From: Clostridiales bacterium
GTDB lineage: Bacteria; Bacillota; Clostridia; Lachnospirales; Lachnospiraceae
Direction: 5' to 3'
Length of the DNA: 45,039 bases
Assembly (NCBI GenBank): GCA_012839295.1
Contig: DUNO01000062.1
Location: 1 to 45,039, forward strand
The stretch's first letter is position 1. Every line of letters begins with the position of its first letter. Shown here one piece after another: positions 5,216 through 22,487 of this stretch. Made by a program: the position numbers and the translations under genes. The notes under the pieces were generated by a model that made no database searches, was not told the origin of the DNA, and saw nothing but the letters and a program-made list of their open reading frames with translations.

Positions 5216-5304
5216 TTACGGGAACATCCCAGGGGCAACCAGGGTGAGAAAAAGGAACATCCCAAGGAGCATTCCAGGGTGTTTTCTAGAAATGAGGAGA
5301 AGCC

Positions 5305-6708
5305 ATGCTGTTTTCCAGTATAACCTTTTTATATTATTTTTTACCCCTGGTAATACTCCTGTATTTTATTCTTCCATTCCGGTATAAAAATCTGCTGTTA
5401 CTGGTAAGCAGCCTCATATTCTATGCCTGGGGGGAACCCCTGTATTGCATGCTGATGCTTCTTGCCATCCTGCAGAGTTATTTTATCGGGATGCGGATAG
5501 AAGCGGCTGGGGGAACCATAAGGGCAAAGCGGTGGCTGGTCTTATCGGTGGTTCTATGCCTGGGGATACTCGGCTTTTTTAAATACTATAATTTCTTTGT
5601 GGCGAATGTGAGGGAGCTGACCCATTTGCCCCTGCCCATCCTTGCCATAGCGCTTCCGATGGGAATCAGCTTTTATATCTTCCAGATCATGAGCTACACG
5701 GTTGATGTGTACCGGGGGACAGCGAAGGCGGAGAAAAATTTGCTGTATTTTATGACCTATGCAGTCTTGTTTCCCCAATTGGTTGCAGGACCCATTGTAA
5801 GATATACGGATATCTCACAGCAGCTGCACCACAGAACCCACAGCCTTTCCCAGACCTATCTTGGCAGCCGGAGGTTTTTAACCGGATTAGCGAAGAAGGT
5901 GCTGTTTGCTAATTCCTTTGGCATGCTTTGCAGCCAGTTTGACCTATCTAAGGACCGGTCAGTGCTGTTTTATTGGCTTTATGGGGTTGCCTATACCCTG
6001 CAGATCTATTATGATTTCTCCGGTTATAGCGATATGGCAATAGGGCTTGGCAGAATTTTTGGCTTTGAGTTTATGGAGAATTTTAATTATCCCTATATTT
6101 CAAAAAGTATTACGGAATTTTGGAGACGCTGGCATATTTCCTTAAGCTCCTGGTTTAAGGATTATGTCTATATCCCCCTGGGAGGCAACCGGGTTCCGGT
6201 ACCAAGGCAGATCCTAAACCTGCTGGTCGTATGGATGCTTACGGGACTTTGGCACGGGGCAGCCTGGAATTTCGTGCTTTGGGGTCTCTTCTTTGCCCTG
6301 CTGCTGATCTTGGAGAAGTTTATATTATTGAAACGGAAATGGTATGGGAAGGGCTTTTTTGCCCATTGCTATATTATGGTGGCCATTATCATCAGCTTTG
6401 TGCTGTTCCGGGCGGAAAGCCTGGGACAGGCGGCCTCTGACATAGGAAGTATGCTCGGACTGGCGAAGCTGCCGGTCATCTCCGTGGAGGCCTGGTACTA
6501 TATGAGAAGCTATGGGGTCATACTGCTGATGGGTGCCCTGGGTGCGACGCCGATAATCAGGAAGGGGCTGCACCATATAATTGGAACAAAGCCGGGGGCA
6601 CAGGCGGCGGTGGTTTTGGAGCCGGTTCTGCTGGGAGGCCTGCTGCTTCTGATTACTGGATATCTTGTAGATGGCTCCTTTAACCCATTTTTATATTTTA
6701 GGTTCTAA
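5305..6708 (+). CDS. MBOAT family O-acyltransferase (AlgI-like)
   Basis: The 467-residue multi-pass membrane protein starts LFSSITFLYYFLPLVILLYF, as AlgI/DltB-type acyltransferases do. It has YDFSGYSDMAIGLGRIFGF, the WRRWHISLSSWFKDYVYIPLGG block and the conserved MLTGLWHGAAWNF segment with the catalytic His317. Such proteins transfer acyl groups, usually acetyl, across the membrane onto extracellular polysaccharide or wall polymers. GAGGAG precedes ATG 5305. The neighbouring DHHW protein has an SGNH-like AlgJ/AlgX fold, which fits the two-step scheme known for alginate acetylation: MBOAT carries acyl groups across and the partner transfers them. The polymer modified here is unknown. Three short repeats of a GGAACATCCCA type occur in the upstream gap. 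Confidence 0.9.
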   Translation: MLFSSITFLYYFLPLVILLYFILPFRYKNLLLLVSSLIFYAWGEPLYCMLMLLAILQSYFIGMRIEAAGGTIRAKRWLVLSVVLCLGILGFFKYYNFFVANVRELTHLPLPILAIALPMGISFYIFQIMSYTVDVYRGTAKAEKNLLYFMTYAVLFPQLVAGPIVRYTDISQQLHHRTHSLSQTYLGSRRFLTGLAKKVLFANSFGMLCSQFDLSKDRSVLFYWLYGVAYTLQIYYDFSGYSDMAIGLGRIFGFEFMENFNYPYISKSITEFWRRWHISLSSWFKDYVYIPLGGNRVPVPRQILNLLVVWMLTGLWHGAAWNFVLWGLFFALLLILEKFILLKRKWYGKGFFAHCYIMVAIIISFVLFRAESLGQAASDIGSMLGLAKLPVISVEAWYYMRSYGVILLMGALGATPIIRKGLHHIIGTKPGAQAAVVLEPVLLGGLLLLITGYLVDGSFNPFLYFRF

Positions 6709-6842
6709 CTAAGGTGTAATGTGGATTATTGAAGCGAATAATTTACAGCCCTGGACTGATGGTTTGATGGTTGATGGTGGAATTAGCTTATGAATTACAG
6801 GGAAAATGGGCATTAGTCTGAATTAGATGAGGTGAAAAGGCA

Positions 6843-7958
6843 TTGGAAACAGAACTTGCTTCCCGAAAGAGTAAGATTGGAATTATATTGTTGACAGGTA
6901 TTTTGCTGTCATTGTCCCTGCTTAACTGCTTACAGCCCGACCGTGAGCTTTCTGATGCGGAGCGCAGAAAGCTAAAGCAATTTCCGGCATGGTCGGTTGG
7001 CTCCTTTGTGAAGAAGGGCTATAGTGAGGAATTCGAAGTCTATGCCATGGACCAGTTTCCTTACCGGGATGTTTTCCGGCGCATGAAGGCGGAAAGCCTG
7101 TATGGAGTGTTCCGCGCAAAAGACAATAATGGGATATATCTGGCGGATGGATATGCGGCAAAGCTGAATTATCCCCTGAATGAGAACTCCCTGAAGAATG
7201 CAATGGATAAATTCAGGTATATTTACGATACTTATCTGGTGGATAACAAGGGGAGGATCTATAGCTGTGTGGTTCCCGATAAGGGATATTACCTTGCGGC
7301 GCAGAACGGCTATCCTGCTTTGGATTATGATAAGCTGTTTAATAGCGTCAAGGAGGGGATGGAATATTCGCAGTACATTGGCATCACGGACTGTCTTAAA
7401 ATAGAGGACTATTATCGGACGGATACCCATTGGAACCAGATAAAGCTGGTGCCCGTGGCAAAGAGACTTGCAAAGGAAATGGGTGTGGCAGAACTGCTAT
7501 CAGGCCAATATGAGGAGCATTCCGCAGCGGAGCCTTTTTATGGCGTATATTATGGGCAGTCAGCCCTGCCTTTACAGAAGGAGAGGATCCGCTATCTGAC
7601 GAATCAGGTCATTAATGGCGGCCGGGTTTATAATTATGAGACGAAGAAGACAACCCCGGTCTATGAGGCCGGGAAATTAAAGAGCAGGGATCCCTATGAG
7701 ATGTTTTTATCGGGCCCGGTACCTCTGCTTACAATAGAAAACCCACAGGCTGGCACGGATAAGGAGCTGATTATATTTCGTGATTCCTTTGCCAGCAGCC
7801 TGGCACCGTTGCTGATGGAGGGCTATGCGAAAATTACCCTAGTAGATATCCGCTATATCAGCAGCTCCATTTTAGGGGATTATATTGAGTTTGACGGACA
7901 GGATGTCCTGTTTCTTTACAGTACCCTGCTCTTAAACGACAGCTTCAGCTTTAAGTAG
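6843..7958 (+). CDS. DHHW family protein (AlgX/AlgJ-like SGNH hydrolase fold)
   Basis: The 371-residue protein has an N-terminal membrane anchor (about residues 12-30, IGIILLTGILLSLSLL) and an extracellular domain. Visible motifs are DTHWNQ (Asp194, His196) and RDSFASSL (Asp314, Ser315), matching the catalytic DxHW and Ser blocks of AlgX/AlgJ-type acetyltransferases and the DHHW family. It is expected to finish transfer of acyl groups delivered by the MBOAT protein. The start is TTG 6843, preceded by GAGGTG with suitable spacing; the first in-frame ATG would remove the anchor. It follows the MBOAT gene by 134 bases with no terminator seen. It ends at a convergent hairpin shared with the leftward gene at 8048. 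Confidence 0.85.
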   Translation: METELASRKSKIGIILLTGILLSLSLLNCLQPDRELSDAERRKLKQFPAWSVGSFVKKGYSEEFEVYAMDQFPYRDVFRRMKAESLYGVFRAKDNNGIYLADGYAAKLNYPLNENSLKNAMDKFRYIYDTYLVDNKGRIYSCVVPDKGYYLAAQNGYPALDYDKLFNSVKEGMEYSQYIGITDCLKIEDYYRTDTHWNQIKLVPVAKRLAKEMGVAELLSGQYEEHSAAEPFYGVYYGQSALPLQKERIRYLTNQVINGGRVYNYETKKTTPVYEAGKLKSRDPYEMFLSGPVPLLTIENPQAGTDKELIIFRDSFASSLAPLLMEGYAKITLVDIRYISSSILGDYIEFDGQDVLFLYSTLLLNDSFSFK

Positions 7959-8003
7959 ACTGCAAATGAAAAGTCAATAGGATAGTAATAGGGTTTATAG
8001 GAA

Positions 8004-8063
8004 AAAGGAGCATAGGGGATACACCAGATTCAATGAAGCCTGGGGATTCAGATATGCTCCTTT
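8004..8063. terminator. Convergent hairpin between DHHW and pseudo-ABC genes
   Basis: AAAGGAGCATA (8004-8014) and TATGCTCCTTT (8053-8063) form an 11-bp perfect stem with a 38-base loop. The right arm covers the last codons of the leftward gene ending at 8048. A/T tails on both sides suggest a weak bidirectional terminator. Confidence 0.5.
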
Positions 8064-9469
8064 AAAACGCCATGGGATAAGTACAGTATCCTGCCTGTGA
8101 TAGAGCTAAGGTCGGGCCATCCGGAGGTGATGACCAGGACGGAGATCCCGTTTTCCGCAAGCATCAGGATCATTTTTTCCGTCAGTATATTCTGTGCGTC
8201 TGCTACGGAAAAGGGTTTGATACAGACAACCAGCTTAGGATTATATAGCAGAAACTTGCAATAAACAATTTTCTGGAGATCATCCTGCATCAGGGATTTT
8301 AAGGGCTTTTTCAGCATCTCAGGGTTAATGACGGGACGGACCTTGAGTGCGATGCTTTTTCTATAATTCCTTTTTAACCAGTAGCCTTTCACCTTGGTGC
8401 TTAAAGGATAGCTGAGGTTTTCTAGTACGCTGAGGTGCTTAAACAACAGCTTCTCGACGGGATTTTCATCGATGAAGCAGATTTCATTTTTGGTTGCGTA
8501 GTAATTCTGCAGGGGTGCATAGGGAAGGCCGTCCATGTAGATTTCGCCGGAGGTCTTCGTAGCTTCACCCTTTAGCATGGAGATGAACCGGTTGGCACTT
8601 GCCTCATCGGCATAAAGAATACGCAGGATTTCGCCCTTATGGATATGAAAACTGACCTGCCTTAGAACCTGGTCTGAAACCTTGTGGAAGGAAAAAACCG
8701 CCTGACCGGGCACCTGGGGTACCTTACCTGCGGGACTGTGGGAGGAAAGCTCCAGCTTTAAATCAAAAACCCGGTAAAGCTTTTCCTTGTCCATGGCTTT
8801 GGGATCAAAGACCCCAATGGTACGCCCTCCCTTAATGACGGTCAGCCTGTCAATATGCTCATAGTTAATGTTCTCAAAGTTGCGCAGGATAAGAAAGGAC
8901 ATGCCCTTGCCCTTTAATTGGAGAACTAATTGGAAGACGGAATTCATCTCATAGGAATTCAGGATCCCGGCAATGTTGGACAGGATAACCAGCTTACGTT
9001 CCAGGGCAAAGGCCGTGATCAGCTCAATAATGATGCATTCGTATATGGTCAGGTTCTTCACGGCTTTGTTCAGCGGGATGTCTATGTTAAAATGCTGGAA
9101 CAGGTCGCGGGCGATCCTATAATAATGCTTCGGGTTCAAATAGAAAAAATGGAACCTGTGGTAGAGCATATTTTCGTAGATTTTAAAATTGGAGACCAGG
9201 TGGCTGGTATGGTCAATCAGGACCACATCCCTTTTGAGGAATTTAGCAATATCATTCTGCTTCATGGCCTCTTCTTCATAGTAGATCTTTCCGTAGCCCA
9301 GGGAGCCTTCCCCGCAAAGAATCTTAAGCAGGGCATTTTTAACATCCGTATTGTCCAGGGAAATGCCATGCACCTCGGATTTAAAAAGCTGGAGGTTTAG
9401 GTTCTCAATCAGCCTGTGGTTATGGTAGGTTAAGGTTCCATTTGATATTTTTAACAGTTCTTCTTTCAT
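8048..9469 (-). CDS. Degenerate double-NBD ABC protein (pseudo-ATPase), probable regulatory partner of the adjacent two-component system
   Basis: The 473-residue protein lines up along its whole length with RbsA/MglA-type dual ATPases but has lost the nucleotide-binding motifs in both halves. The first Walker A position reads SLDNTDVKNA (residues 37-46) instead of GxNGAGKST. The LSxGQ signature is LTIYECIII and Walker B is LVILSNIAGIL. In the second half Walker A is YADEASANRF, the signature LMQDDLQK and Walker B LVVCIKPF. Lengths, strand order and spacing of the half-domains are kept, so it is an evolved pseudo-enzyme and not a decayed gene. The start is ATG 9469 with TGGAGG upstream. It is the last gene of the operon with the kinase and regulator, which suggests a sensing or tethering role. 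No transport role is likely without ATP hydrolysis. Confidence 0.7.
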   Translation of the reverse strand: MKEELLKISNGTLTYHNHRLIENLNLQLFKSEVHGISLDNTDVKNALLKILCGEGSLGYGKIYYEEEAMKQNDIAKFLKRDVVLIDHTSHLVSNFKIYENMLYHRFHFFYLNPKHYYRIARDLFQHFNIDIPLNKAVKNLTIYECIIIELITAFALERKLVILSNIAGILNSYEMNSVFQLVLQLKGKGMSFLILRNFENINYEHIDRLTVIKGGRTIGVFDPKAMDKEKLYRVFDLKLELSSHSPAGKVPQVPGQAVFSFHKVSDQVLRQVSFHIHKGEILRILYADEASANRFISMLKGEATKTSGEIYMDGLPYAPLQNYYATKNEICFIDENPVEKLLFKHLSVLENLSYPLSTKVKGYWLKRNYRKSIALKVRPVINPEMLKKPLKSLMQDDLQKIVYCKFLLYNPKLVVCIKPFSVADAQNILTEKMILMLAENGISVLVITSGWPDLSSITGRILYLSHGVLKEHI

Positions 9470-9573
9470 ACTGGGCCTCCATTCTGCCAAAGGCTGCAAA
9501 TTGTGGTGCCGGCCTGGCGGGGTATTATAATCATGGCGGGTCTTGTTCTATCTGGCAGCCATCCGTTTCCTGG

Positions 9574-10572
9574 TTAATCCATGATTTTTGGAAGGGTTAT
9601 ATTTACATCAGTTCCATAGCCTTGGATGCTGTAGATATGCAGCCCGTATTCTTCACCAAAGAGCAGCTTAATTCGCTGGGATACATTGCGCAGCGCGATA
9701 CCGCCTTTGGATCTTTTCTCCTCCTGCATGGTAGGGATGGCGGCCTTTTCCAAGGATTTATTTAGCTGTCGGAGCCTCTGTTCCGGGATGCCCAGACCGT
9801 TATCCGATATGCATATCATGAGGTTTTTATTGGTAGTCTCAAGCTGGATGGTGATACAGCCCCCATTTGTCTTTCCCTCTAAGCCATGGAATACCGCATT
9901 TTCTATAATCGGCTGGAGGGTCAGCTTGGGAAGCTTTAGCAGCCTGACGCTTTCCTCGTTCTCATTTTCGGGGAAATTAATCACCATTTTTATCTTATCA
10001 TCAAAGCGGTATTGTTGGATTTTAAAATAGTTGCCTGCATTCTCAAGCTCATCTGCAAGGGTAACAAGGGTTTTAACCTCGGTAATCGTGTAGCGGAAGA
10101 AAGAAGAAAGAGCTTCCGTGGTCTCCGCAATGCTCATGACACCCGCATATAGGGCATCTCCCCGGATTGCTTCCAGTGTATTGTAGAGAAAATGTGGGTT
10201 GATCTGGTTCTGTAAGGCAAGGTATTCCGCCTGCTTCTTTGAGAGATTGATGGCGTCCTGCTTGTTAAGCAGCTGGTGGAATTTCTTTGTAACGAGGGCG
10301 GACTGCTTCGTGTATGGGAGGCTGCTTTCAAAGAGCTCCTCATAGATTTTCCCCTCTAAAAATAAAGCATTGAGCTTTTTATTATGCTGGTAAGGCAGGA
10401 AAACCAGAAAATAGTACAATATAGCAATGGCCAGGTGGAGTAATAATCCCGCCAGGAGATAGGGGTAATGGCGGTTTAAGAGGCCATAAAACAAGAATAA
10501 ACAAAAAATATGATATAAAAAAAGCAGGGCTGTTATTAAGAAGGCCCTTTGGAAAAGGGATATTTTTCTCAT
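9574..10572 (-). CDS. Sensor histidine kinase, YesM/LytS type, lacking an extracytoplasmic sensor domain
   Basis: The 332-residue protein has two membrane helices (about residues 9-30 and 38-60) joined by only about seven residues. A short linker follows, then the His_kinase domain with QINPHFLYNTLE (His127 as phospho-acceptor) and a HATPase domain with IIENAVFHG, SDNGLGIP and GGIALRNV. Classical YesM kinases are near 580 residues and carry a large Cache-type sensor between the helices; that domain is absent here. Input must therefore come from the membrane, the cytoplasm or a partner protein. The gene lies between its response regulator and the pseudo-ABC protein on the same strand. GGAGA precedes ATG 10572. 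Confidence 0.88.
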   Translation of the reverse strand: MRKISLFQRAFLITALLFLYHIFCLFLFYGLLNRHYPYLLAGLLLHLAIAILYYFLVFLPYQHNKKLNALFLEGKIYEELFESSLPYTKQSALVTKKFHQLLNKQDAINLSKKQAEYLALQNQINPHFLYNTLEAIRGDALYAGVMSIAETTEALSSFFRYTITEVKTLVTLADELENAGNYFKIQQYRFDDKIKMVINFPENENEESVRLLKLPKLTLQPIIENAVFHGLEGKTNGGCITIQLETTNKNLMICISDNGLGIPEQRLRQLNKSLEKAAIPTMQEEKRSKGGIALRNVSQRIKLLFGEEYGLHIYSIQGYGTDVNITLPKIMD

Positions 10573-10718: not shown

Positions 10719-12320
10719 TCAGGAATAAAGCTTACGGTATTCCGAAGGACTTAAACCCGTATATTTCCTGAATTTCTTATTAAAATATTTCAAATCGTTA
10801 AAGCCGGAGATCCCGGCAATGTCGTTGACGCTTCTGCCGGTGCTTACCAAAAGCTCCTTTACGTTCTGGATGCGGACTTCCGTGAGGTAATCGACAAAGC
10901 TGACGCCTGTCTCCTTCTTAAACACGCTGGAAAAGTAGGCAGGGTTTAGGCCTACCTGCTCCCCGATGACTTCCAGGGACAGGGGCTCTGAAAAATTTGC
11001 CTTGATGTACTGCTTTGCCAGCCGGATCGGCTTGGAGTGCTCCAGGGCTTTTTCCGTCTGCCATTCGCTGATGGTGTCCGTAATTCTGTTTAATAGGTTG
11101 CGGAAGATTTTATCGATGCTGTTATAGATATGGAAATCCTCCTCCAGGTTTTCCGCAAATTTATCAGAGTCAAAGCTTATGCCATAGTTCTTTGCCCCGT
11201 AGAGGAAGGTGGAGATAACCTCATGGTAGATATCAAGGACATAGCGCCCGTCAATGGGCTGGGTGTTTTTCAGGGTTTCTGCAAGACCCTTAAGGATGGT
11301 GGATAATTTATCATAATTGACAGTTTCAATTGCAAGGAGAAACTCTTTACGGAAGCCGCTGCTGATGATATTGTCAATAGGGTTTAGTACGGGCCGTCCG
11401 GTAAAGTCAAGGATGCTTTCATGGCTGCGGAACAGCTTATTTAAAAGAGTGTCCTGCACCTGCCTCATCATATCGTCCGAAGCGGTGAGGCTGCTTTTGA
11501 TTTCGCTTAATGCAATGACCGGAGTGATGTCTTCGAACATGTCCTTAAAGTTCAGGAAAGTGGTACGCAGCCGCTGCAGATCCTTCTTTAGTGTAAGAAA
11601 GGCGGTGTCTTTACCGTTTATCAGGCAATACAGGATACCGTTTCGGTTGGCAAAGACAATCTCGTCAAAGGAAGAGAGGCCTTCGAGAATAGTATCTTGA
11701 AGCTTTGTATTAAGAAAGCCGATGGCTTTTTCGTTAATATTATTATAAAGCATAATCTGGATGCCTATCATCTGGAAGGGGTTTTCGGTAAATTTGCAGT
11801 AATAGGTCTGGTTAATCTGCCTAAGCTCATAATCACAGGTAAGGCTATGGTCTAATAAATCATTGAGAAGCTTGCCTTTCACCCTGCGGCCGCTTTGGCT
11901 CAGCTGTTCACGCATATATTCTTCTTTATCGATGTTCTTCTGGTTTTCCCTAAATTCCTCAATAATTTTTTCTAATGTCCCGACAAGCTCCTTTTTTTTG
12001 ATTGGCTTGAGCAGATAATCATCCACACCATATTTGATTGCGGTCTGGGCATAGGAAAAATCACTATAGCCGCTGATAATAATAAAGCGGGCATTGCTGC
12101 CGATGCTTCTGGCGTTCTTAATTAATTCCAGGCCGCCCAGCTCGGGCATCCGTATGTCTGTTATTACAATATCCGGATTTTTTTCTTTAATCATATGTAA
12201 TGCTGATAAACCGTCGTTTACATAACCTAATACATCCAGGCCAAGTGAACTCCAGTCAAATAAATATTGGATTAATCTGCATACACGTATTTCATCATCT
12301 ACTATTAAAACCTTCAACAT
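10719..12320 (-). CDS. Response regulator with AraC-type DNA-binding domain (YesN-like)
   Basis: The 533-residue protein has a receiver domain at residues 1-120 (acidic DD at 8-9, phospho-acceptor Asp55 in ITDIRMP, Lys in LLKPIKKKEL). A long central region of about 300 residues follows, and the C-terminal AraC helix-turn-helix pair covers about 430-533, with the signature around SGFNDLKYFNKKFRKYTGLSPSEYRKL. It starts at ATG 12320 behind GGGAGATAAACT. It is divergent from the glycyl radical enzyme operon across a 449-base region, and paired with the kinase downstream. The simplest reading is that it activates the divergent enzyme/importer operon in response to the imported compound. YesN-like regulators typically control carbohydrate uptake genes. 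Confidence 0.9.
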   Translation of the reverse strand: MLKVLIVDDEIRVCRLIQYLFDWSSLGLDVLGYVNDGLSALHMIKEKNPDIVITDIRMPELGGLELIKNARSIGSNARFIIISGYSDFSYAQTAIKYGVDDYLLKPIKKKELVGTLEKIIEEFRENQKNIDKEEYMREQLSQSGRRVKGKLLNDLLDHSLTCDYELRQINQTYYCKFTENPFQMIGIQIMLYNNINEKAIGFLNTKLQDTILEGLSSFDEIVFANRNGILYCLINGKDTAFLTLKKDLQRLRTTFLNFKDMFEDITPVIALSEIKSSLTASDDMMRQVQDTLLNKLFRSHESILDFTGRPVLNPIDNIISSGFRKEFLLAIETVNYDKLSTILKGLAETLKNTQPIDGRYVLDIYHEVISTFLYGAKNYGISFDSDKFAENLEEDFHIYNSIDKIFRNLLNRITDTISEWQTEKALEHSKPIRLAKQYIKANFSEPLSLEVIGEQVGLNPAYFSSVFKKETGVSFVDYLTEVRIQNVKELLVSTGRSVNDIAGISGFNDLKYFNKKFRKYTGLSPSEYRKLYS

Positions 12321-12769
12321 AGTTTATCTCCCTTACCTCTTAACTGGAAAAACAGGCTACATTTACCCACAAAAAACCAAGACATCTACAATACAGATAT
12401 CAAGGAAGTCTTTTGTGCCTAGGATTGAATTATAAAATTAAGATATGGATTAGACTTACTATGGATTTGGAGGGTAAAAAGCATTAAGCTAATCTGTATA
12501 AGAATTATATTCGTATCTTGGGATTAAATCAATAGCAGATTATAACATTTGTATAGGGAAGGGTGAAATTATTTTTCCTGTTTGATGGTTTTATCTAAGT
12601 TCTAAAGATTATACCCCTGTGTGTAAAGATAATGAGTTCTAATAATCAGAGGATGATGCTAGAATAGGTGTACAAATTAACCAATACAGTAAGAGGAAAA
12701 TGGATTTGGAGAGGACTTATGGCATTGGTTAATGGTATTGATGTATTGATTATTGTAGGAGGATTTAGC
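12321..12769. promoter_or_regulatory. Divergent control region between regulator and glycyl radical enzyme
   Basis: This 449-base AT-rich gap must hold the promoters of both the leftward regulator operon and the rightward enzyme/importer operon. No clear consensus -35/-10 pair or perfect operator palindrome was seen, which would fit an activator-dependent promoter. A reading frame opens at 12668 in phase with the enzyme but has no ribosome binding site, so it is treated as non-coding. Confidence 0.5.
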
Positions 12770-15007
12770 ATGAGAGAAATGGATTCTTTTCAAATTGGCA
12801 CACAACCGGTTCGAAGTGAACGTATTGACCAGCTTTATAAATACGTAACATCCTTTGAGTATGGGATCTGTGCCGAAAGAGGTCACTACCTGACTGAATT
12901 TTACAAAGATAATATGAATCTGCCCGCCATTGTACGCAGGGCGAAGGCCATCGATTATGTATTGGAAAACATGAGTATTTATATCATGCCGGGAAGCTTG
13001 TTTGCAGGCAACCAGACCTCAAATCCGAGATGGGCACCACTCTTTCCTGAATTTGAGGTAGAGTGGGTTGAGGAGGAGCTTTTGAAGGGAAATCCCTATT
13101 ATCCCTGGGAAAGGCCTGCTGACCGGTATACCCTCCGTGACGAGGATAAACCCCTGATCAAGGATATGTGTGACTGGTGGAAGGGGAAGACGCACACGGA
13201 TACCCTGCGTGTCAGACTGCCAAAGGAAGCGCTTGCAACACATTATGATTTAAAGGCTGCCGATATCGGCACTTATTTCCAGGGCGGTGACGGGCATTTT
13301 GCGCCGGATCATGAGTATTTGATTAATAACGGTGTCCAAAAGCTGATTGATGACTGTACAAAGTACAGGGACGCGCTGGATTGGAGCGAGCCGGATACGA
13401 TTAAGAAAAAGGATTTTTACGATGCGGCAATTATTAGTGCCAATGCGATTATAAAGTTTGCCGAAAGGTATGTAGATCTTGCGGAGAAGCTGGCAGCAGA
13501 GGAAAAGGACGAGACCAGGAGAAAGGAGCTGCTTACCATTGCGGAGACCTGCAGGTGGGTACCAAAGAATCCGGCAAGAAACTTTTATGAAGCCCTGCAG
13601 TGCATCATTCTGGTACATATCTGTATCCAGATTGAAGACAGCGGAGCCGGTGTATCCTTTGGCAGGTATGACCAGTTCATGTACCCGTTTTATACACAGG
13701 GAAAGAAGGAAGGTACCTTAACGGACGAGCTGGCACTGGAGCTGACCGAGAACTTCTTCCTCCAGATCTATGCCTGCAATAAGGTAAGAAGCTGGGTTGA
13801 TACGGATTTTTACAGGGGCGTGCCAATGTTCCAGAACCTTACGATTGGCGGACAGGATCCGGTCAGGAAATGCGATGCCACCAATGAGCTGAGCTACATA
13901 GCGCTGGATGCAACCTACCATACAAGAATACCGCAGCCATCTTTAACGGTCCGTTTCCATAAAAACACACCCTATGAGTTTAAGATTAAGGTGGCTGAGG
14001 TTATCAGGCTGGGAACCGGATTACCCTCCATCTTTAATGATGAAACCTATATTCCGGCTCTGATGAACCGCGGTTATGAGTTAAATGATGCTTACAACTA
14101 TTGTATTATCGGATGTGTGGAGCCTGGAGCCGCAGGCCTCTTGGGAGGCAGGACCGGCGGTGCATGGCTGAACTGTACCAAGGCGCTTGAGATGTCCTTG
14201 TATAACGGAAGGGATCCAAGAACTGGTATTTGCCTGCATAAGAATCCCCGCGATAAGGATCTTTCTACCTTTGAGAGCTTTGAAGAAGCGAAGGAGGCTT
14301 ATTTAAGCCAGATCGCTTACTATATCAAGATGGAGGCCATCCTTGAAAATACCATCGACCAGGTATGGGAAGAAACACTGGAGGAGCCGATGGCTGCAAT
14401 ATTTGCCTGCCCGACGACTACAATTCCAAGAGGAAAGCCGATTAAGCAGGGCGGTGCGAAATATGATCTGACAGGACAGCAGACCATTGGTACCGCAAAT
14501 GTAGCCAATAGCTTGTATTCCATCAAGAAGCTGGTATTTGACGATAAAGTCATTACCGGTGCCCAGTTAAAGCATGCCCTGGAAACGAATTTCCAGGATA
14601 TGAGCACCAATCCTACCGGGGCACAGATCAAAGCCCTCTGCCTGAATGTACCGAAATACGGCAATGACGTCGATGAGGTGGATGAACTGGCAAGGGAAAT
14701 GCTGGCCTTTGTTGCAAATGAGCTGGTAAGCTACAAGAATACACGTTATGGAAGGGGGCCCATTGGGGGCACGCTGCATTGCTCGACCAGTACGGTATCC
14801 AGCAATACTCCATTTGGTAAGGTATGCGGTGCGACGCCGGACGGAAGGGAAGCCTACACGGCGGTGGCAGACGGACAGTCTCCTATGAGGGGAACGGATG
14901 TAAACGGCCCTACGGCGGCAATCGCTTCCGTTGCAAAGCTAAATAATATTTTATTATCCTGTGGTTCTTTATATAATATGAAGTTCAGTCCGGCAGATTT
15001 AAGCTAG
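12770..15007 (+). CDS. Glycyl radical enzyme, catalytic chain lacking the glycyl radical domain (split GRE)
   Basis: The 745-residue chain is a PFL/glycerol-dehydratase family barrel. It carries GCVEPG with the thiyl Cys449 and Glu451; the C-x-E pattern is the one used by dehydratase and C-X lyase members (glycerol and propanediol dehydratases, CutC, HypD, isethionate lyase), not by pyruvate formate-lyase, which has two adjacent cysteines. The chain stops after NMKFSPADLS, exactly at the hinge where normal family members continue into the glycyl radical domain. That domain follows as a separate gene 71 bases downstream. AGGAGG (12757-12762) sets the start at ATG 12770. It heads an operon with an importer and an activase. 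The substrate cannot be read from sequence; the ribose-type importer hints at a small polar compound. Confidence 0.88.
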   Translation: MREMDSFQIGTQPVRSERIDQLYKYVTSFEYGICAERGHYLTEFYKDNMNLPAIVRRAKAIDYVLENMSIYIMPGSLFAGNQTSNPRWAPLFPEFEVEWVEEELLKGNPYYPWERPADRYTLRDEDKPLIKDMCDWWKGKTHTDTLRVRLPKEALATHYDLKAADIGTYFQGGDGHFAPDHEYLINNGVQKLIDDCTKYRDALDWSEPDTIKKKDFYDAAIISANAIIKFAERYVDLAEKLAAEEKDETRRKELLTIAETCRWVPKNPARNFYEALQCIILVHICIQIEDSGAGVSFGRYDQFMYPFYTQGKKEGTLTDELALELTENFFLQIYACNKVRSWVDTDFYRGVPMFQNLTIGGQDPVRKCDATNELSYIALDATYHTRIPQPSLTVRFHKNTPYEFKIKVAEVIRLGTGLPSIFNDETYIPALMNRGYELNDAYNYCIIGCVEPGAAGLLGGRTGGAWLNCTKALEMSLYNGRDPRTGICLHKNPRDKDLSTFESFEEAKEAYLSQIAYYIKMEAILENTIDQVWEETLEEPMAAIFACPTTTIPRGKPIKQGGAKYDLTGQQTIGTANVANSLYSIKKLVFDDKVITGAQLKHALETNFQDMSTNPTGAQIKALCLNVPKYGNDVDEVDELAREMLAFVANELVSYKNTRYGRGPIGGTLHCSTSTVSSNTPFGKVCGATPDGREAYTAVADGQSPMRGTDVNGPTAAIASVAKLNNILLSCGSLYNMKFSPADLS

Positions 15008-15078
15008 ATTGCAATGGATGGCCGGCCATCCCATGGGATTAACGGAAAATAAGGAAGTAATGGAAAGGAGAATGAATT

Positions 15079-15330
15079 ATGTCAGAGGTATTAATTAATA
15101 AAACGGACGGATTACAGAGGTTTGTCAGCCTGATTGACCGGTATTTTGCGGCGGGCGGTTCCCAGCTCCAGTTTAATGTGGTCAGCAGGAAAACCTTAAT
15201 TGACGCCCAGAACAATCCGGAGAAGTATGCCAACCTGCTTGTCAGGGTTGCCGGGTACAGCGCTTATTTTACGCAGCTGTCCAAGGATGTGCAAAAGGAT
15301 ATTATTGAACGTACGGAAGAGAAATTATAA
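15079..15330 (+). CDS. Autonomous glycyl radical domain subunit (partner of split GRE)
   Basis: This 83-residue protein is nothing but the C-terminal radical domain of a glycyl radical enzyme. It begins GLQRFVSLIDRYFAAGG, runs through QLQFNVVSRKTLIDAQNNPE and ends with the signature LLVRVAGYSAYF, with Gly59 as the radical site. It has its own ribosome binding site (AAAGGAG, 15064-15070) and lies in a different frame from the catalytic chain. Complete domain boundaries argue for a true two-chain enzyme, not a broken gene. The nearest known precedent is YfiD/GrcA, a spare radical domain that repairs pyruvate formate-lyase; here the partner chain has no such domain at all, so this subunit should be essential. 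It would be activated by the radical-SAM protein at 19325. Confidence 0.9.
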   Translation: MSEVLINKTDGLQRFVSLIDRYFAAGGSQLQFNVVSRKTLIDAQNNPEKYANLLVRVAGYSAYFTQLSKDVQKDIIERTEEKL

Positions 15331-15490: not shown

Positions 15491-16627
15491 ATGAGAAAAA
15501 GAATGATAAGTATATTAATGTGCATCACATTAGCTGGAGCCTTGATGACGGGCTGCCAGATGGGAGACAGTAACACCGCCGGGAAAGGTTCTTCCACCAC
15601 AGAGCAGGCCAGTTCAGGCACAGCCCAGACTGTTGCACAGGGAGAAGTATTTTCAGCAACACCGGAACAGTTGGCATTATTACCGGAAGATATGATCGGG
15701 ACCAAGGATCAGTTTAAGGGTATGAAAATAGGTTTCTCACAGAGAAATATTGCCGGCTCCGAGTGGTGGGAGCAGCTTGTAAGGCTTGCCAAGGAAGAAG
15801 CAGAATACTTAGGGATAGAGCTTACCGTATATGACGGCGGAAATGATTTGACAAAACAGATGGCTGATATTGAAACCCTGGTAAACCTAAAGCCGGATGC
15901 CATTATCGTCAACCCCTTCCATTCCACGGGAGTGCTGCCTTCCATTGAAAAGGTGCACGAAGCAGGGATTCCGTTAACAGTTGTAAATTGTGCATTGGAT
16001 GCAGAGGGCTCACCCTTTACCTTCGTATCCTGTGATGTGGAAAACAGCGGTTTCCAATCAGGATACCAATTAGCAAAGGCATATGACGAGAAATACGGCT
16101 GGAAGGACCAGGTAAAGGCATTGGTGCTGTCTGCAGCGGCACAGGAAGAGGAGTCTGACTTAAGAAGATGGGGACAGATTGCAGGCTATAATGATTATAT
16201 GCTTGAAAAATACGGCAAATCCAATCTGGACATTGTTGCCTACCGGTATTATAATTGGCAGCCTGAACCTGCTATGAATGAAACTCTGGATGCTTTGCAG
16301 GCAAATGCTGACCTGGATATCATTTTCGCCGCTTGTGACGGAGGAGCACAGGGTGTAGTTGCAGCCCTTGATTCCGTCGGGAAATCCGGTGACATTATGA
16401 TTACCTCCATTGATGCCAGAAAAACCGTATTGGAATGGATTGATTCCGGGGATAAGGGCGTAGTGGCTACAGTGGCAAATGATCCCAGGATGATGGGCAA
16501 ATGGGCAGTATATCTGGCGGCACTCCAGGCTAACGGCATTACTACCCCGTCCACCTTCTATGTACCGAATACCTGCTATACGAAGGCTAACGTAGCTTCC
16601 GTCTATGACCCGAACTCAACCTATTAA
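15491..16627 (+). CDS. Ribose-type ABC transporter substrate-binding lipoprotein
   Basis: The 378-residue product has a lipoprotein signal (MRKRMISILMCITLAGALMTGC, lipobox Cys22) and a low-complexity Ser/Thr linker. A periplasmic-binding-protein type I domain (PF13407-like) follows, with KGMKIGFSQRNIAGSEWWEQL, LVNLKPDAIIVNPF and a cluster-B arrangement as in RbsB. It captures the substrate outside the membrane and passes it to the permease. ATG 15491 follows GGAGGG by six bases; a longer reading from 15425 would bury the signal peptide. Its position directly after the glycyl radical genes suggests that it binds the enzyme's substrate. An intercistronic hairpin at 16660-16701 may raise its expression over the membrane parts. 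Confidence 0.9.
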   Translation: MRKRMISILMCITLAGALMTGCQMGDSNTAGKGSSTTEQASSGTAQTVAQGEVFSATPEQLALLPEDMIGTKDQFKGMKIGFSQRNIAGSEWWEQLVRLAKEEAEYLGIELTVYDGGNDLTKQMADIETLVNLKPDAIIVNPFHSTGVLPSIEKVHEAGIPLTVVNCALDAEGSPFTFVSCDVENSGFQSGYQLAKAYDEKYGWKDQVKALVLSAAAQEEESDLRRWGQIAGYNDYMLEKYGKSNLDIVAYRYYNWQPEPAMNETLDALQANADLDIIFAACDGGAQGVVAALDSVGKSGDIMITSIDARKTVLEWIDSGDKGVVATVANDPRMMGKWAVYLAALQANGITTPSTFYVPNTCYTKANVASVYDPNSTY

Positions 16628-16745: not shown

Positions 16746-18278
16746 ATGGAGTGTCCTAAGGCAGTAGTATTAAAAAATATAACGAAAAAGTTTTCAGGCG
16801 TAAAAGCCTTGGATGATGTCACATTCCATGTGGAGCAGGGTGACATTCACGCCTTAGTCGGTGAAAACGGTGCAGGCAAGTCCACCCTGATGAAAATATT
16901 GTGCGGAAGCTATTCCCACCACTCGGTGGAAGGGCAGATATCCATCCTTGGGAATGAGGTAAGGCTGAATAACCCAAAGGAAGCAAACCGGCATGGAGTG
17001 GTCATGGTACATCAGGAGCTGGCCCTGATTCCGGAGTTAAGCGTGGCAGAAAATATGTTTTTGGGAAATCTGCCCTTTAAGAATGGCGTAGTGGATTGGA
17101 AAACGGTCTATAGCAAGTCCCAGGAAACCTTAAAGCAGCTTGCCCTGGATATTGATGTGCGCATGAAGGTAAAGAACCTGAGTGTGGGGCACCAGCAGCT
17201 GGTGGAGATATCAAAGGCCATACTTCTGGGCGGCAAGGTCATGATCCTGGATGAGCCTACGGCGCCGCTGACAGGCAGGGAGATTGAGCTTCTTTTCAAA
17301 GTAATCAGAAAATTAAAGGAGCAGGGTATTACCATTATATATATATCCCACAGGCTGGAAGAGATATTTTCCTTAACGGATAAGGTGTCTGTTATGCGGG
17401 ATGGAAAATTAGTAATTACGAAGGATACAAAGGACGTAGATGAACACGAGCTGGTATCCTACATGATCGGAAGGGAAATGGAGGACTTCTATCCAAAGGA
17501 TAAGACACTTCCCGGTGACATTATATTGTCCGCCCAGAATTTCAGTGTTGCACATCCAAACTATCCGGGGAAAAAGATTGTAGATAATGTAAGCATGAAT
17601 TTTAGGGCTGGTGAGATTGTAGGGATAGCAGGACTTCTCGGTGCAGGCCGTACAGAGCTTATGACTGCCATTACAGGAGCTTATCCGAAAAAAAGTACGG
17701 GAATTGTCACATTTAAAAGCCGGCCGGTAAAGTTTAAAAATCCTGGCCAGGCCATAACAAATGGAATTGGCTTTGTCTCGGAAGACCGGAAAGGAAATGG
17801 ACTAATATTAAACCAAACCATCCGGTTTAATATCAGCCTGGCATCCTTAAGGCGGATCTGCAAAAACCGTCTTTTGAATAAAAGGAAGGAAGATGGGCTT
17901 ACACAGGAGATGATAGGAAGGCTTAGGATCAAAACAACCAGTGAATATAACCCGGTTAAAAGCCTAAGCGGCGGGAACCAGCAGAAGGTAGTGTTTGCGA
18001 AATGGATCGCCACGGATCCGGAGGTATTGATTCTGGATGAGCCCACAAGGGGTGTGGATGTTGGTGCCAAATATGAGATCTATTCCATCATGAAAAAGCT
18101 TGCGCAGCAAAATGTGGCTATCATTATGATATCCTCAGACCTTCAGGAAATCATCGGTATGAGCGACCGGGTATATGTAATGTATGAGGGTAAACTTTCA
18201 GGCGAATTGCAAAAGGAAGAATTGACGGAGAATTCAATTATGAAATATGCAACAGGTGCTGTAAGTATGGCAGTATAG
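16746..18278 (+). CDS. Ribose-type ABC transporter ATP-binding protein (RbsA/MglA family)
   Basis: The 510-residue protein has two ABC domains. The first is canonical: Walker A GENGAGKST, signature LSVGHQQ and Walker B VMILDEPTAPLT. The second has GLLGAGRTE in place of the standard Walker A, as usual in this family, with LSGGNQQKVVFAKW and VLILDEPTRGVDVG. It powers sugar-type uptake with the permease downstream. GAGGAG precedes ATG 16746. It is a useful in-window reference for the pseudo-ATPase at 8048, which aligns to the same architecture without any of these motifs. Residues 1-240 and 250-500 form the two halves. Confidence 0.93.
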   Translation: MECPKAVVLKNITKKFSGVKALDDVTFHVEQGDIHALVGENGAGKSTLMKILCGSYSHHSVEGQISILGNEVRLNNPKEANRHGVVMVHQELALIPELSVAENMFLGNLPFKNGVVDWKTVYSKSQETLKQLALDIDVRMKVKNLSVGHQQLVEISKAILLGGKVMILDEPTAPLTGREIELLFKVIRKLKEQGITIIYISHRLEEIFSLTDKVSVMRDGKLVITKDTKDVDEHELVSYMIGREMEDFYPKDKTLPGDIILSAQNFSVAHPNYPGKKIVDNVSMNFRAGEIVGIAGLLGAGRTELMTAITGAYPKKSTGIVTFKSRPVKFKNPGQAITNGIGFVSEDRKGNGLILNQTIRFNISLASLRRICKNRLLNKRKEDGLTQEMIGRLRIKTTSEYNPVKSLSGGNQQKVVFAKWIATDPEVLILDEPTRGVDVGAKYEIYSIMKKLAQQNVAIIMISSDLQEIIGMSDRVYVMYEGKLSGELQKEELTENSIMKYATGAVSMAV

Positions 18279-18317
18279 ACTAATTTATCTGTATTGAGGT
18301 TATTAAGGAGGAAAACT

Positions 18318-19298
18318 ATGTCAGACATTCAATTGACAGCAGCATCAGATATGAAGCAAAAGAGAAATTATAAAAGTGAAATATTGAAATTTACGAAAAA
18401 CAACTTTGTGGTTATCGCCTTTATAGCACTGATTATTTGGGGAGGCTTTGCTTCACCGGCATTTCTGACCCTGAGCAATATCAAGACGGTATTATTACAG
18501 AATTCAATCTATGCAATCTGTGCCCTGGGTATGCTGTTTATCGTCATCACCGGTGGAATTGATTTATCCGTAGGCTCCTACGTGGTAGTTGCCGTATGCT
18601 TTACGGCAGGCTTTATCCAGGATGGCAGGGGAGTATTGGCAATTGTTATAGTAACACTGATGAGCATCCTGTTCGGCATAATATCAGGCACCCTGATCGC
18701 CTATGCAAAGGTGGCGCCCTTCATTGCGACACTGGCAATGACGACGATCCTGAGGGGCATTGCGTATATCTACCAGGTTGGACAGAACAGAAGGATTGAC
18801 GGCACCTTCTGGCCCAAATTCATCCAAGGCAGCTTACTTGGAATTCCAATCCCTGTCCTGATTCTTTTTATAACATATCTGATTGTTACATTTTTATTAA
18901 AGAAAACAAAATACGGACGCGGTATCTATGCCATTGGCGGTAACAGCGAGACAGCCCGTTTGGCGGGTATCAACGTAAAAAAATATATTATCATAACCTA
19001 TGCCTTAGGCGGCTTTTTGTTCGGCTTGGCCGGTATGATACTGGCAGGACGGCTGAGCATGGGTACGGCTACCGTAGGTGAAGGCTATGAGCTGGATGCA
19101 ATTGCTGCCGTAGTGGTAGGCGGTGCAACCCTGTCCGGCGGCGTAGGAAGCCCGATCAAGACCCTGGTGGGCGCATTTTTAATCGGCGCGTTGATGAATA
19201 TCATGAACTTAATGGGAATTGCTTCTTATCCGCAGATGATTATCAAGGGCATTATTATTGTTGCAGCAGTATTAATGCACCGGGACAGCAGCCATTAA
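18318..19298 (+). CDS. Ribose-type ABC transporter permease (RbsC family)
   Basis: The 326-residue integral membrane protein has 8 to 10 hydrophobic segments. It shows the BPD_transp_2 family pattern, with VITGGIDLSVGSYVV near residue 85 and the cytoplasmic ATPase-contact segment GGNSETARLAGINVKKY. AAGGAGG at 18305-18311 sets ATG 18318; a TTG at 18294 is less likely. Only one permease gene is present, so the channel is probably a homodimer served by the single ATPase upstream. The order binding protein, ATPase, permease, activase is uninterrupted, with short gaps. Confidence 0.92.
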   Translation: MSDIQLTAASDMKQKRNYKSEILKFTKNNFVVIAFIALIIWGGFASPAFLTLSNIKTVLLQNSIYAICALGMLFIVITGGIDLSVGSYVVVAVCFTAGFIQDGRGVLAIVIVTLMSILFGIISGTLIAYAKVAPFIATLAMTTILRGIAYIYQVGQNRRIDGTFWPKFIQGSLLGIPIPVLILFITYLIVTFLLKKTKYGRGIYAIGGNSETARLAGINVKKYIIITYALGGFLFGLAGMILAGRLSMGTATVGEGYELDAIAAVVVGGATLSGGVGSPIKTLVGAFLIGALMNIMNLMGIASYPQMIIKGIIIVAAVLMHRDSSH

Positions 19299-19324: not shown

Positions 19325-20296
19325 TTGGTCCACTATAATCAAAACAGGACAACGACCTTAGAGCTATTAAATGAATCCGGAATGATATCAAACATTGAGC
19401 GCTATGCGATTAATGATGGCTATGGTTTACGGACAACAGTATTTTTGAAGGGATGTCCTCTTCGGTGTAAATGGTGCAGTAATCCTGAAACGCAGAAAAC
19501 ATATCAGGAAATGGTTTTCTTTGGGGATCAGTGTATCGGCTGTAACGAGTGCGTCAGGCTATGTGAATACGGCGCCCTGGAGCATGGGCTTCTGGCAGAC
19601 CGGTCAATCTGTGAGAGATGCCATGAGAGGGAGACCGCATTTGCCTGCACCAGGAAATGCTATCCCCAGTGCAGAAAAATTGACGGAAAAGTGATGACGG
19701 TAAAGGAGGTATTGGATGTAGTAAAAAGGGATCTGCAGTTCTATCAGATGAGCGGCGGAGGTGTTACCTTATCCGGCGGTGAACCCTTGTCCCAACCGGA
19801 ATTTACATACTCCCTCCTGAGTTCCTTAAGAAATAATTACATCAATACCGCCATTGAGACCTGTGGAGCAGGCAGGAAAGAGGATTTTGTAAAAATAGCA
19901 CCTTATTTAAATATGGCCTTCATGGATTTAAAATCCGCGAATAAGGATAAGCATCTGGAATGGACAGGTGCCGGGAATGATGCCATACTTAAGAATATTA
20001 AAGCCATGGACCGGCTTTCCGGGGAATATGGTTTTGACCTGATCATCCGGGTACCGGTCATTCCAGGCTTTAATGATACCCCGGAGGACATAGGTGCCAT
20101 TGGGGAATTCATTCTTAACAATTGCAATAACTTTAAAGGAATGGAGCTTCTTCCCTACCATAAGCTCGGAAGGGGAAAATATACGAGCCTGGGCAGAAGC
20201 TATGAACTGGAAGGCCTGACGGCTCCTTCGGATGGAAAAATGAAGGAATTAAATAAAATATTATTCGATGCGGGAATAAAGCTATACCAGTTTTAA
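19325..20296 (+). CDS. Glycyl radical enzyme activating protein (radical SAM, with ferredoxin-like insert)
   Basis: The 323-residue enzyme carries the radical-SAM motif CPLRCKWC (Cys44, Cys48, Cys51). A ferredoxin-like insert with two further Cys clusters follows (CIGCNECVRLC, and CERC with CTRKCYPQC), then GGGVTLSGGEPL for SAM binding. It uses reduced Fe-S and SAM to abstract hydrogen from the glycine of its partner, here Gly59 of the 83-residue subunit. The extra clusters are typical of activases for dehydratase-type enzymes; the PFL activase lacks them. The start is TTG 19325 with GGAGGG at 19312-19317; the alternative ATG (Met20) lacks a binding site. It ends the operon, followed by a strong terminator. 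Confidence 0.93.
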   Translation: MVHYNQNRTTTLELLNESGMISNIERYAINDGYGLRTTVFLKGCPLRCKWCSNPETQKTYQEMVFFGDQCIGCNECVRLCEYGALEHGLLADRSICERCHERETAFACTRKCYPQCRKIDGKVMTVKEVLDVVKRDLQFYQMSGGGVTLSGGEPLSQPEFTYSLLSSLRNNYINTAIETCGAGRKEDFVKIAPYLNMAFMDLKSANKDKHLEWTGAGNDAILKNIKAMDRLSGEYGFDLIIRVPVIPGFNDTPEDIGAIGEFILNNCNNFKGMELLPYHKLGRGKYTSLGRSYELEGLTAPSDGKMKELNKILFDAGIKLYQF

Positions 20297-20853: not shown

Positions 20854-21516
20854 ATGCTTGGAGTATTTGATATTATCGGGCCTGTTATGATTGGTCCGTC
20901 CAGCTCCCATACCGCAGGGGCGGTACGCATTGGGAAATATGCCCGTTCCATATTGGGGGAAAAGCCTATCAGGGCCTGGATTGGCTTTGTAGGATCCTTT
21001 GCCAAGACTTACCGGGGGCATGGGACGGATAAAGCGATCATTGCCGGCATCCTTGGAATGGATGCGGACGATGGCAGGATCCGGGACAGCCTGGATGTTG
21101 CTGCCGCGGGAGGGCTTTCCTATACCTTTGAAACGATAGAGATGGAAGGGATGCATCCCAATACGGTAAGCCTTGAACTGGAGGGAGGGAGCGGAAGGAC
21201 GGTTAATGTCATAGGCTCCTCTGTAGGAGGGGGCAATATCTTAATTAATAGGATCAATGGTGCCGAGGTGCTGATTTCCGGGAAGTCAACGGCATTGATT
21301 ATCATACATTTGGACATCCCCGGTATGATAGGGAAGGTAAGTAATGTATTGGGTGACAACGGTATCAATATTAATAAGATTTCACTGAACAGGGAAGAAA
21401 AGGGCGGGATAGCCATAATGACGATTGAGATAGATGGGGATATAGAGCCGGCTATTCAGCAGATAATCCAAAGCATTCCCAATGTGTTATCTGCCAGTAT
21501 CTTGAATGCGGTTTAG
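20854..21516 (+). CDS. sdaAB: L-serine dehydratase, iron-sulfur-dependent, beta subunit
   Basis: The 220-residue beta subunit starts with the family block VFDIIGPVMIGPSSSHTAGAVRIG. It ends in an ACT domain (about residues 148-220, LIIHLDIPGMIGKVSNVLGDNGININ), a likely serine-binding regulatory site. With the alpha subunit it deaminates L-serine to pyruvate and ammonia. AAAGGAG precedes ATG 20854. The two subunits are separate proteins, the usual arrangement in Clostridia; in E. coli they are one chain. A leader hairpin lies upstream. The length is normal. Confidence 0.95.
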   Translation: MLGVFDIIGPVMIGPSSSHTAGAVRIGKYARSILGEKPIRAWIGFVGSFAKTYRGHGTDKAIIAGILGMDADDGRIRDSLDVAAAGGLSYTFETIEMEGMHPNTVSLELEGGSGRTVNVIGSSVGGGNILINRINGAEVLISGKSTALIIIHLDIPGMIGKVSNVLGDNGININKISLNREEKGGIAIMTIEIDGDIEPAIQQIIQSIPNVLSASILNAV

Positions 21517-21562
21517 GAGTAAGGTTAAAAAATAAGGTTAATTGATGAAAGGAGGCGGATCC

Positions 21563-21625
21563 ATGCAGCAATTTCGTAGAGCTTTGCGCTGCATGTGGTG
21601 CATGGATATAGCTTATGAAATATGA
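21563..21625 (+). CDS. Possible 20-codon coupling ORF ahead of sdaAA
   Basis: A strong ribosome binding site (AAAGGAGGCGG) drives ATG 21563, which opens a 20-residue frame (MQQFRRALRCMWCMDIAYEI) ending TGA 21623-21625. It overlaps the sdaAA start (ATG 21615) by 11 bases. sdaAA itself has no convincing binding site, so ribosomes finishing this peptide may start sdaAA. The peptide contains three Arg, two Cys and a Trp. Confidence 0.4.
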   Translation: MQQFRRALRCMWCMDIAYEI

Positions 21626-22487
21626 TTCAGTATCAGAATTATGCCGGATAGCGGAAGAAGAGAAGGTAAGGATTTCAGAGTTGGTATTAAAGGATCAGGC
21701 GGTCCAGATGGAAAAGAGCGAAGAAGAAATAAAGGGTACAATGAGGACAATGCTTAAAGCAATGAGGGCAAGCACAAAGGAAGGGATCGAGCCTGGTAAA
21801 CGCTCCAGCAGCGGCCTAAGCGGCGGTGATGCATATAAAATGCAGCAGGCAGTGGAGGAAGGGCGGACGATCTGCGGGCCTGTCCTGGGAAAGGCACTTA
21901 CCAAAGCGCTTTCCGCATCTGAGACAAATGCCTGCATGGGCAGGGTTGTAGCAGCACCCACAGCCGGAAGCTGCGGGATTCTCCCTGCTGTCCTAATGAC
22001 GGTTGGGGAAGAATGGGAGCTTGATGATGAGCAGTTAGTGATGGCATTATTTACCGCATCAGCGGTTGGGATGGTCATAGCCAACAAGGCCAGTATTTCG
22101 GGTGCCGAAGGAGGCTGCCAGGCAGAGTGCGGCTCCGCCAGCGCAATGGCTGCAGCAGCCCTGGTTGAGCTAAACGGCGGCACACCTGCAATGGTGGGAC
22201 ATGCCTGTGCCATTTCCTTAAAAAGCGTACTGGGACTGGTATGTGATCCGGTGGCAGGACTGGTTGAGGTTCCTTGTATCAAGCGCAATGCCATGGGGGC
22301 GGCGAATGCCTTTGTAGCAGCCGAGCTAGCCCTGGCGGGCATCGAAAGCAGGATCCCTGTTGATGAGGTCATTCATGCAATGAAGACGATTGGGGACTGC
22401 ATGCTTCCTGCCCTTAAGGAGACAGCAGAGGGCGGCCTGGCGGCAACCCCGACGGCAAAGAAATATATGAAACAGATTTTCGGATAG
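21615..22487 (+). CDS. sdaAA: L-serine dehydratase, iron-sulfur-dependent, alpha subunit
   Basis: The 290-residue alpha subunit holds the catalytic 4Fe-4S site. The family blocks ACMGRVVAAPTAGSCGILPAV, GCQAECGSASAMAAA and CDPVAGLVEVPCIKRN are all present and supply the conserved cysteines. The N-terminus MKYDSVSELCRIAEEEKVRISELVL matches the family start, which supports ATG 21615 although its own ribosome binding site is weak; the overlapping 20-codon frame may provide coupling. It is the partner of the beta subunit 98 bases upstream. It ends 12 bases before the convergent L,D-transpeptidase, with no clear terminator in between. Confidence 0.95.
   Translation: MKYDSVSELCRIAEEEKVRISELVLKDQAVQMEKSEEEIKGTMRTMLKAMRASTKEGIEPGKRSSSGLSGGDAYKMQQAVEEGRTICGPVLGKALTKALSASETNACMGRVVAAPTAGSCGILPAVLMTVGEEWELDDEQLVMALFTASAVGMVIANKASISGAEGGCQAECGSASAMAAAALVELNGGTPAMVGHACAISLKSVLGLVCDPVAGLVEVPCIKRNAMGAANAFVAAELALAGIESRIPVDEVIHAMKTIGDCMLPALKETAEGGLAATPTAKKYMKQIFG

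Follow-up and report, generated by a model that had tools for sequence, protein, structure and literature searches.

A glycyl radical enzyme (GRE) of the PFL fold is expected to have a Cys-bearing catalytic domain and a Gly radical domain on the same polypeptide. In the window, by which we mean the whole 45,039 nucleotide stretch analysed here (contig C73 of an 82-contig, 6.36 Mb genome), these parts are encoded by two genes (Table 1), and the locus raises the question of whether the pair specifies a single enzyme made of two chains. The catalytic ORF ends ...SLYNMKFSPADLS-TAG, with the stop codon at 15005-15007 and the radical domain absent after NMKFSPADLS, and the radical-domain ORF is found 71 nt 3' of it, in frame +2. 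A preliminary description of this DNA had placed the stop at the hinge and a separate gene of 83 residues, with its own ribosome site, beyond the 71-nt gap, and these coordinates are correct. The residues it had singled out, Cys449 and Glu451 in GCVEPG and Gly59 in VRVAGYSAYF, are as claimed in both the sequence and the alignments, and Cys449 is invariant in 45 of 45 aligned sequences.

Table 1. Features of the window around the split pair. Homologues were counted in 18 loci compared for neighbours, which include fused and unrelated ones.
Feature	Position	Strand	Basis
Sensor histidine kinase (His_kinase/HATPase)	9574..10572	-	Domain match, locus comparison
Response regulator (AraC-type DNA-binding domain), transcribed divergently from the enzyme genes	10719..12320	-	Domain match, locus comparison
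Ribosome site (AGGAGG) for the catalytic gene	12757..12762	+	Read in sequence
Catalytic chain, PFL2/3-type GRE, 745 aa	12770..15007	+	Sequence, ORF list, Pfam, NCBIfam
Ribosome site (AAGGAG) for the radical-domain gene, 8 nt ahead of the ATG	15065..15070	+	
Separate glycyl radical domain (83 aa; Gly59 within VRVAGYSAYF)	15079..15330	+	ORF list, Pfam, NCBIfam
Sugar-type (Peripla_BP_4) ABC substrate-binding protein	15491..16627	+	Pfam/NCBIfam; homologue in 13/18 loci
ATPase of a sugar ABC transporter; the xylose-type model scores best, below cut-off	16746..18278	+	Pfam, locus comparison
Permease of a sugar ABC transporter (BPD_transp_2); start codon provisional	18294..19298	+	Homologue in 13/18 loci
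Radical SAM GRE activase, 334 bits to TIGR02494 (cut-off 174); start codon provisional	19325..20296	+	Homologue in 14/18 loci

The domain models divide between the two chains. In Pfam, PF02901 covers residues 17-683 of the big chain (636 bits, cut-off 24.3), where PF01228 is matched at just positions 1-44 of its 106 (25.5 bits); positions 49-106 of the same model are found in the small chain (77 bits, E 1.9e-21). The NCBIfam model for PFL2-3, TIGR01774 (786 positions), runs from 3 to 708 in the big chain and from 705 to 786 in the small. Scores of 592.7 and 86.7 are both below the cut-off of 678.2, which the big chain misses because the protein is split or truncated; a fused relative, L049, scores 717.2. 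The window thus contains what defines a split GRE, namely a catalytic chain without a radical domain, an adjacent separate radical-domain gene, and conservation of both.

The same two-gene split with a matching breakpoint, for which the preliminary description proposed a search, recurs. Including the window, there are 13 adjacent split pairs, one of them partial (L152). Among 80 catalytic-chain loci in species genomes, eight are split (L041-L045, L047, L048 and L051) and 71 are fused in the same frame; the remaining one, L046, is cut off at a contig edge before the radical domain. Whole-genome searches contributed L038, L039, L155 and the partial L152, and L151, L153 and L154 were treated as copies of L043, L044 and L047, whose contigs have the same lengths. 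L038 is a second, divergent split pair in the genome of the window itself (G000, contig C19, 8259-10511 and 10529-10765), and in the matches listed for 24 further congeneric genomes, L039 is the sole clear split pair. G024, of the same genus, also has a frame of 103 codons that matches the radical domain in part. Three named strains carry a split pair: Anaerobium acetethylicum GluBS11, Diplocloster agilis ASD5720 and Clostridiales VE202-21.

The small chain has a match in 249 of 299 genomes of the family, and among the matches listed for these genomes at least eight rows, from seven genomes, hold the small domain on its own, in frames 84-106 codons long. In one of the seven, G107, a lone radical domain (L156, 9468-9749) has no catalytic chain that we could find within the surrounding 19.5 kb. 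Three genomes are unusually rich in GREs, with 18 (G194), 17 (G254) and 15 (G269) radical-domain matches.

Across 87 rows, the number of residues past the breakpoint is bimodal, either 0-1 or 72-83, with the exceptions of L048 (18) and the cut L046. The two nearest fused relatives read ...NLKFSPNDI-KGS-EGLQRLV... (L049) and ...NLKFLPEHL-RSE-EGLRRFL... (L050) across this point. In the window, the big chain ends ...NMKFSPADLS-stop and the small chain begins MSEVLINKTD-GLQRFV..., with ten residues before GLQRF. Comparison of these ends with L049 and L050 therefore places the split in a linker of approximately 3 residues that leads from the barrel to the radical domain.

Eleven junctions were tabulated; L155 was read only partially. 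That the radical-domain gene occupies a reading frame of its own, as the preliminary description had it, is true of the window but is not a general trait, as the frame offset is 0 (n=3), 1 (n=2) or 2 (n=6). Intergenic gaps range from 17 to 134 nt, and in 11 of 11 cases the small gene carries a start codon of its own and a Shine-Dalgarno match of 4-6 nt; the match is poorest at L048, where the small gene is TTG-initiated. Recoding, in which stop read-through or a frameshift yields a fused protein, could be entertained for L042, L043 and L047, where both genes share a frame. However, the other eight junctions have an offset of 1 or 2, and gaps of this length and small genes equipped for their own translation also speak against it. 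As neither frames nor gaps are conserved across the junctions, we reject recoding as very improbable.

Both chains have been retained by selection. In comparisons with the window among the 12 complete pairs, pN/pS was 0.068-0.39 for the big chain and 0.085-0.417 for the small; L152, in which only 59 aa of the big chain are present, was excluded from the selection, tree, AU and co-inheritance analyses. The estimates are coarse because dS was saturated in 44 of the 44 big-chain pairs listed and in 34 of the 44 small-chain pairs; in the 10 unsaturated small-chain pairs, dN/dS was 0.013-0.173. The Cys-x-Glu motif of the big chain and RVAGYSAYF of the small chain are intact in 12/12 complete pairs. 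We conclude that both chains are under strong, long-standing purifying selection. They have also been inherited together: big- and small-chain distances correlate over the 12 pairs (Mantel r 0.954, p 0.0001) and, in the same test, over the nine main-clade pairs only (r 0.769, p 0.0012).

The window is a single contig of an 82-contig assembly, and at such a locus an error of sequencing or assembly might be suspected, as might a pseudogene of recent origin. Assembly error is excluded as a general explanation because the split recurs in independent genomes, including those of A. acetethylicum GluBS11, D. agilis ASD5720 and VE202-21, and a pseudogene does not fit with long-standing purifying selection on both chains. 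The preliminary description had taken the clean domain boundary and intact motifs to argue against decay, and recurrence and selection uphold this; it had also considered a split present in no other genome and accompanied by relaxed selection, and the opposite was found. Decay and assembly error are therefore rejected as extremely improbable.

A further statement in the preliminary description, that both parts are on a single chain in known GREs, is contradicted by the split PFL and GrcA3 of NCBIfam (TIGR01255 and NF038360), which were found in 17 genomes of the order. The concept of a split is therefore already in the databases via GrcA3. In the matches listed for 392 genomes from the order, radical domains encoded on their own are common. 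At 29 loci (L158-L186), 17 have a GrcA3-like domain beside a PFL chain that lacks one, 11 are fused and one is the window; the 17 genomes had been picked for carrying a stand-alone domain. In 17/17 of them, the only PFL match over the cut-off is the split chain. As in the window, a chain without a radical domain is followed just 3' by a separate gene, here in a frame of 81-120 codons. The split PFL chains end at position 665-670 of 744, or at 700-707 across a stop in G139 and G350. For G381 and G584, the genome scan gives one long frame and reading of the locus gives separate stop-to-stop frames (L161 and L176). G139 also has a 70-residue frame with a weak radical-domain match of 27 bits (L184, approximately 1202-1411), flanked by the split PFL chain and GrcA3. 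Two PFL chains in the PDB, 38la and 38lb (687 and 739 aa), are absent from the radical-domain matches.

Unlike the split PFL chains, the big chain of the window scores only 96 against the TIGR01255 cut-off of 994 and belongs to a different GRE subfamily. The small chain likewise falls below the cut-offs for GrcA3 (NF038360, 76 vs 158), GrcA/YfiD (TIGR04365, 51.5 vs 170) and GrcA2 (NF008341, 55.7 vs 145), and its assignment to any of the three was rejected. The small chain of L040, the only GrcA3-like partner of a split PFL that was scanned, passes the GrcA3 model (171 vs 158). What appears to be new here, judged from sequence, is that the split GRE falls in the PFL2/3 (dehydratase-type) branch and not in PFL proper. 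In a search of freely accessible published papers, no split GRE was found among the literature matches listed, and neither 'split' nor 'glycyl radical domain' was found in the accessible portion of a 2024 review of gut metalloenzymes (PMC11574389).

YfiD/GrcA of E. coli is likewise a radical domain on its own, from which a radical passes to a cysteine in a different chain. According to Andorfer et al. 2021 (PMC8683613), its PFL partner owns a radical domain until it is cleaved by oxygen, and such spare parts have been validated for PFL only, with a role for other GREs a matter of speculation. In trans supply of the radical is illustrated by E. coli PflB-G734A, a variant unable to hold a radical itself, which, in a 2025 report (PMC12338860), produces formate with GrcA and none without it. 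The small gene of the window could by analogy be a YfiD/GrcA-like spare part for some other, complete GRE, with the big chain a dead fragment: the small chain does stand alone, the genome has other, fused GREs, and that spare parts might serve enzymes other than PFL was suggested in the same 2021 article. We regard this as improbable. The big chain is conserved, with Cys and Glu intact over the 12 pairs, and its evolution tracks that of the small chain, which adjoins a chain missing precisely that domain and lies below the cut-off of all three GrcA models. The proteins also differ in layout. YfiD/GrcA is 127 aa long, with 67-122 matching (PDB 6owr), whereas the small chain of the window starts at the hinge, and the big chain, unlike the PFL partner of YfiD/GrcA, never has a radical domain.

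We return to the reading of the pair as two parts of one enzyme, for which the fused dehydratases provide a structural reference. Glycerol dehydratase (1r8w), propanediol dehydratase (5i2g and 9rco) and YbiW (8id7) share with the split pair a full-length fold, Cys-x-Glu and RVAGYS; they differ in being single chains, and Foldseek alignments give 37-40% identity with the joined L043 pair. The joined L043 chain is artificial: its two genes are in one frame with a single stop between them, which was read as Q. AlphaFold2 returned a confident model of it (pLDDT 92.3, pTM 0.92), in which the sole stretch of at least three residues with pLDDT below 50 is 747-761, the artificial junction. Foldseek matched this model to 5i2g, 9rco and 1r8w over 828-830 columns with TMq of 0.91-0.92. 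Fused relatives account for 33 of the 45 rows in the alignment used for this fold, and the program was presumably trained on fused GREs; the model hence indicates that the joined L043 pair is compatible with a complete GRE fold, and docking from first principles is not implied. The small chain alone, predicted from 15 aligned rows, gave a weaker result than the joined chain (pLDDT 76.6, pTM 0.53). The Glu of Cys-x-Glu, a feature of GRE dehydratases, is present in the big chain of the window. After this motif the window has GGRTGGAW and 1r8w has EGWHDSAF, and the substrate is therefore probably different from that of 1r8w.

The genes around the pair include a radical SAM activase of the kind that would be cognate to a GRE. 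The window and most of its closest relatives share the gene order big chain, small chain, binding protein, ABC ATPase, permease and radical SAM activase. At L038 and L155 the binding protein is 5' of the pair and the activase directly follows the small gene, at L048 the activase and transporter are upstream of the pair, and no activase was found within the available stretch of L042. A response regulator and histidine kinase are upstream and divergent in the window, L039, L041, L042, L043 and L047, and downstream in L044, L152 and L051 (regulator only within the L051 stretch). An ABC-ATPase-like protein is encoded at 8048-9499 on the minus strand of the window, recognized by a single weak ATPase match (39.4 bits), and its homologue adjoins the histidine kinase and regulator, conserved in six loci. 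On the 3' side of the activase, the window carries genes for the beta and alpha parts of an iron-sulfur L-serine ammonia-lyase (20854-22487). The importer is of the ribose/xylose/arabinose type; several sugar models were matched, all below their equivalog cut-offs. The substrate of the enzyme would be a sugar, a polyol or a related compound.

How often the split arose was addressed with a tree built without the first big chain of L045, which is cut at its 5' end; L046 was unlabelled in it. One clade, with support of 100/100, holds 13 split rows, the cut L046, and the fused L049 and L050. Three changes of the split/fused label are needed on this tree, at least two of them forced by starred branches, and a single change was sufficient in 0% of 200 bootstrap trees. 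In the AU test, with L046 joined to the group held together, a single clade of split rows was not rejected (p 0.136). One gain followed by re-fusion in L049 and L050 is thus possible. L049, from an Actinomycetota MAG, is 57% identical to the window in the catalytic part and has an activase, an ABC ATPase and a permease beside it; the split therefore seems to have arisen within an existing operon. L050, from an Aneurinibacillus MAG, is 54% identical in the catalytic part and has an adjacent activase gene. The fused protein of L050 (7758-10457) reads VRVAGYVAYF, with valine in place of the serine after GY. As the PFL and PFL2/3 branches are distant and 71 of the 80 loci found for the latter are fused, the splits in the two branches look independent. 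Independent splits would mean that division at the hinge is repeatedly tolerated or favoured, as seems to be the case.

We consider it very likely that the window pair is a two-subunit GRE; its reaction is probably that of a dehydratase or another eliminase. The 745-residue chain would provide the barrel, with Cys449 as the thiyl residue and Glu451 as the probable base. The 83-residue chain would dock at the place that a fused enzyme fills with its C-terminal domain, bringing Gly59 beside Cys449. The activase would then take a hydrogen from Gly59, the radical would move to Cys449, and Cys449 would attack a substrate imported by the neighbouring sugar-type transporter.

Two loci bear on whether the radical subunit can be exchanged. 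L044, in Diplocloster agilis, has two catalytic genes (4916-7153 and 8001-10238) that are 844 nt apart, 92% identical and share the same end point, and a single radical gene located after the second. Of the 57 residues that differ between these tandem chains, 56 are within the first 349 and one lies from 350 on, a pattern that looks like gene conversion. L045, from a MAG, also has two catalytic genes and one radical gene; the first catalytic gene is truncated by the contig start and is 92% identical over 546 residues. The arrangement hints that both catalytic chains of L044 and L045, if expressed, would share the sole radical subunit seen there. It is a tentative proposal, possible rather than probable, that the radical subunit is an exchangeable carrier that serves one or more catalytic chains, such that its supply sets activity and a copy cleaved by oxygen is swapped and the large chain kept.

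A pair of this kind would be a natural two-component system in which installation, storage and transfer of the radical could be studied on separate proteins. It also suggests that some GREs annotated as 'truncated' and some 'autonomous cofactors' may be halves of a single enzyme. The split architecture would be extended from PFL to the dehydratase-type branch of the GREs.
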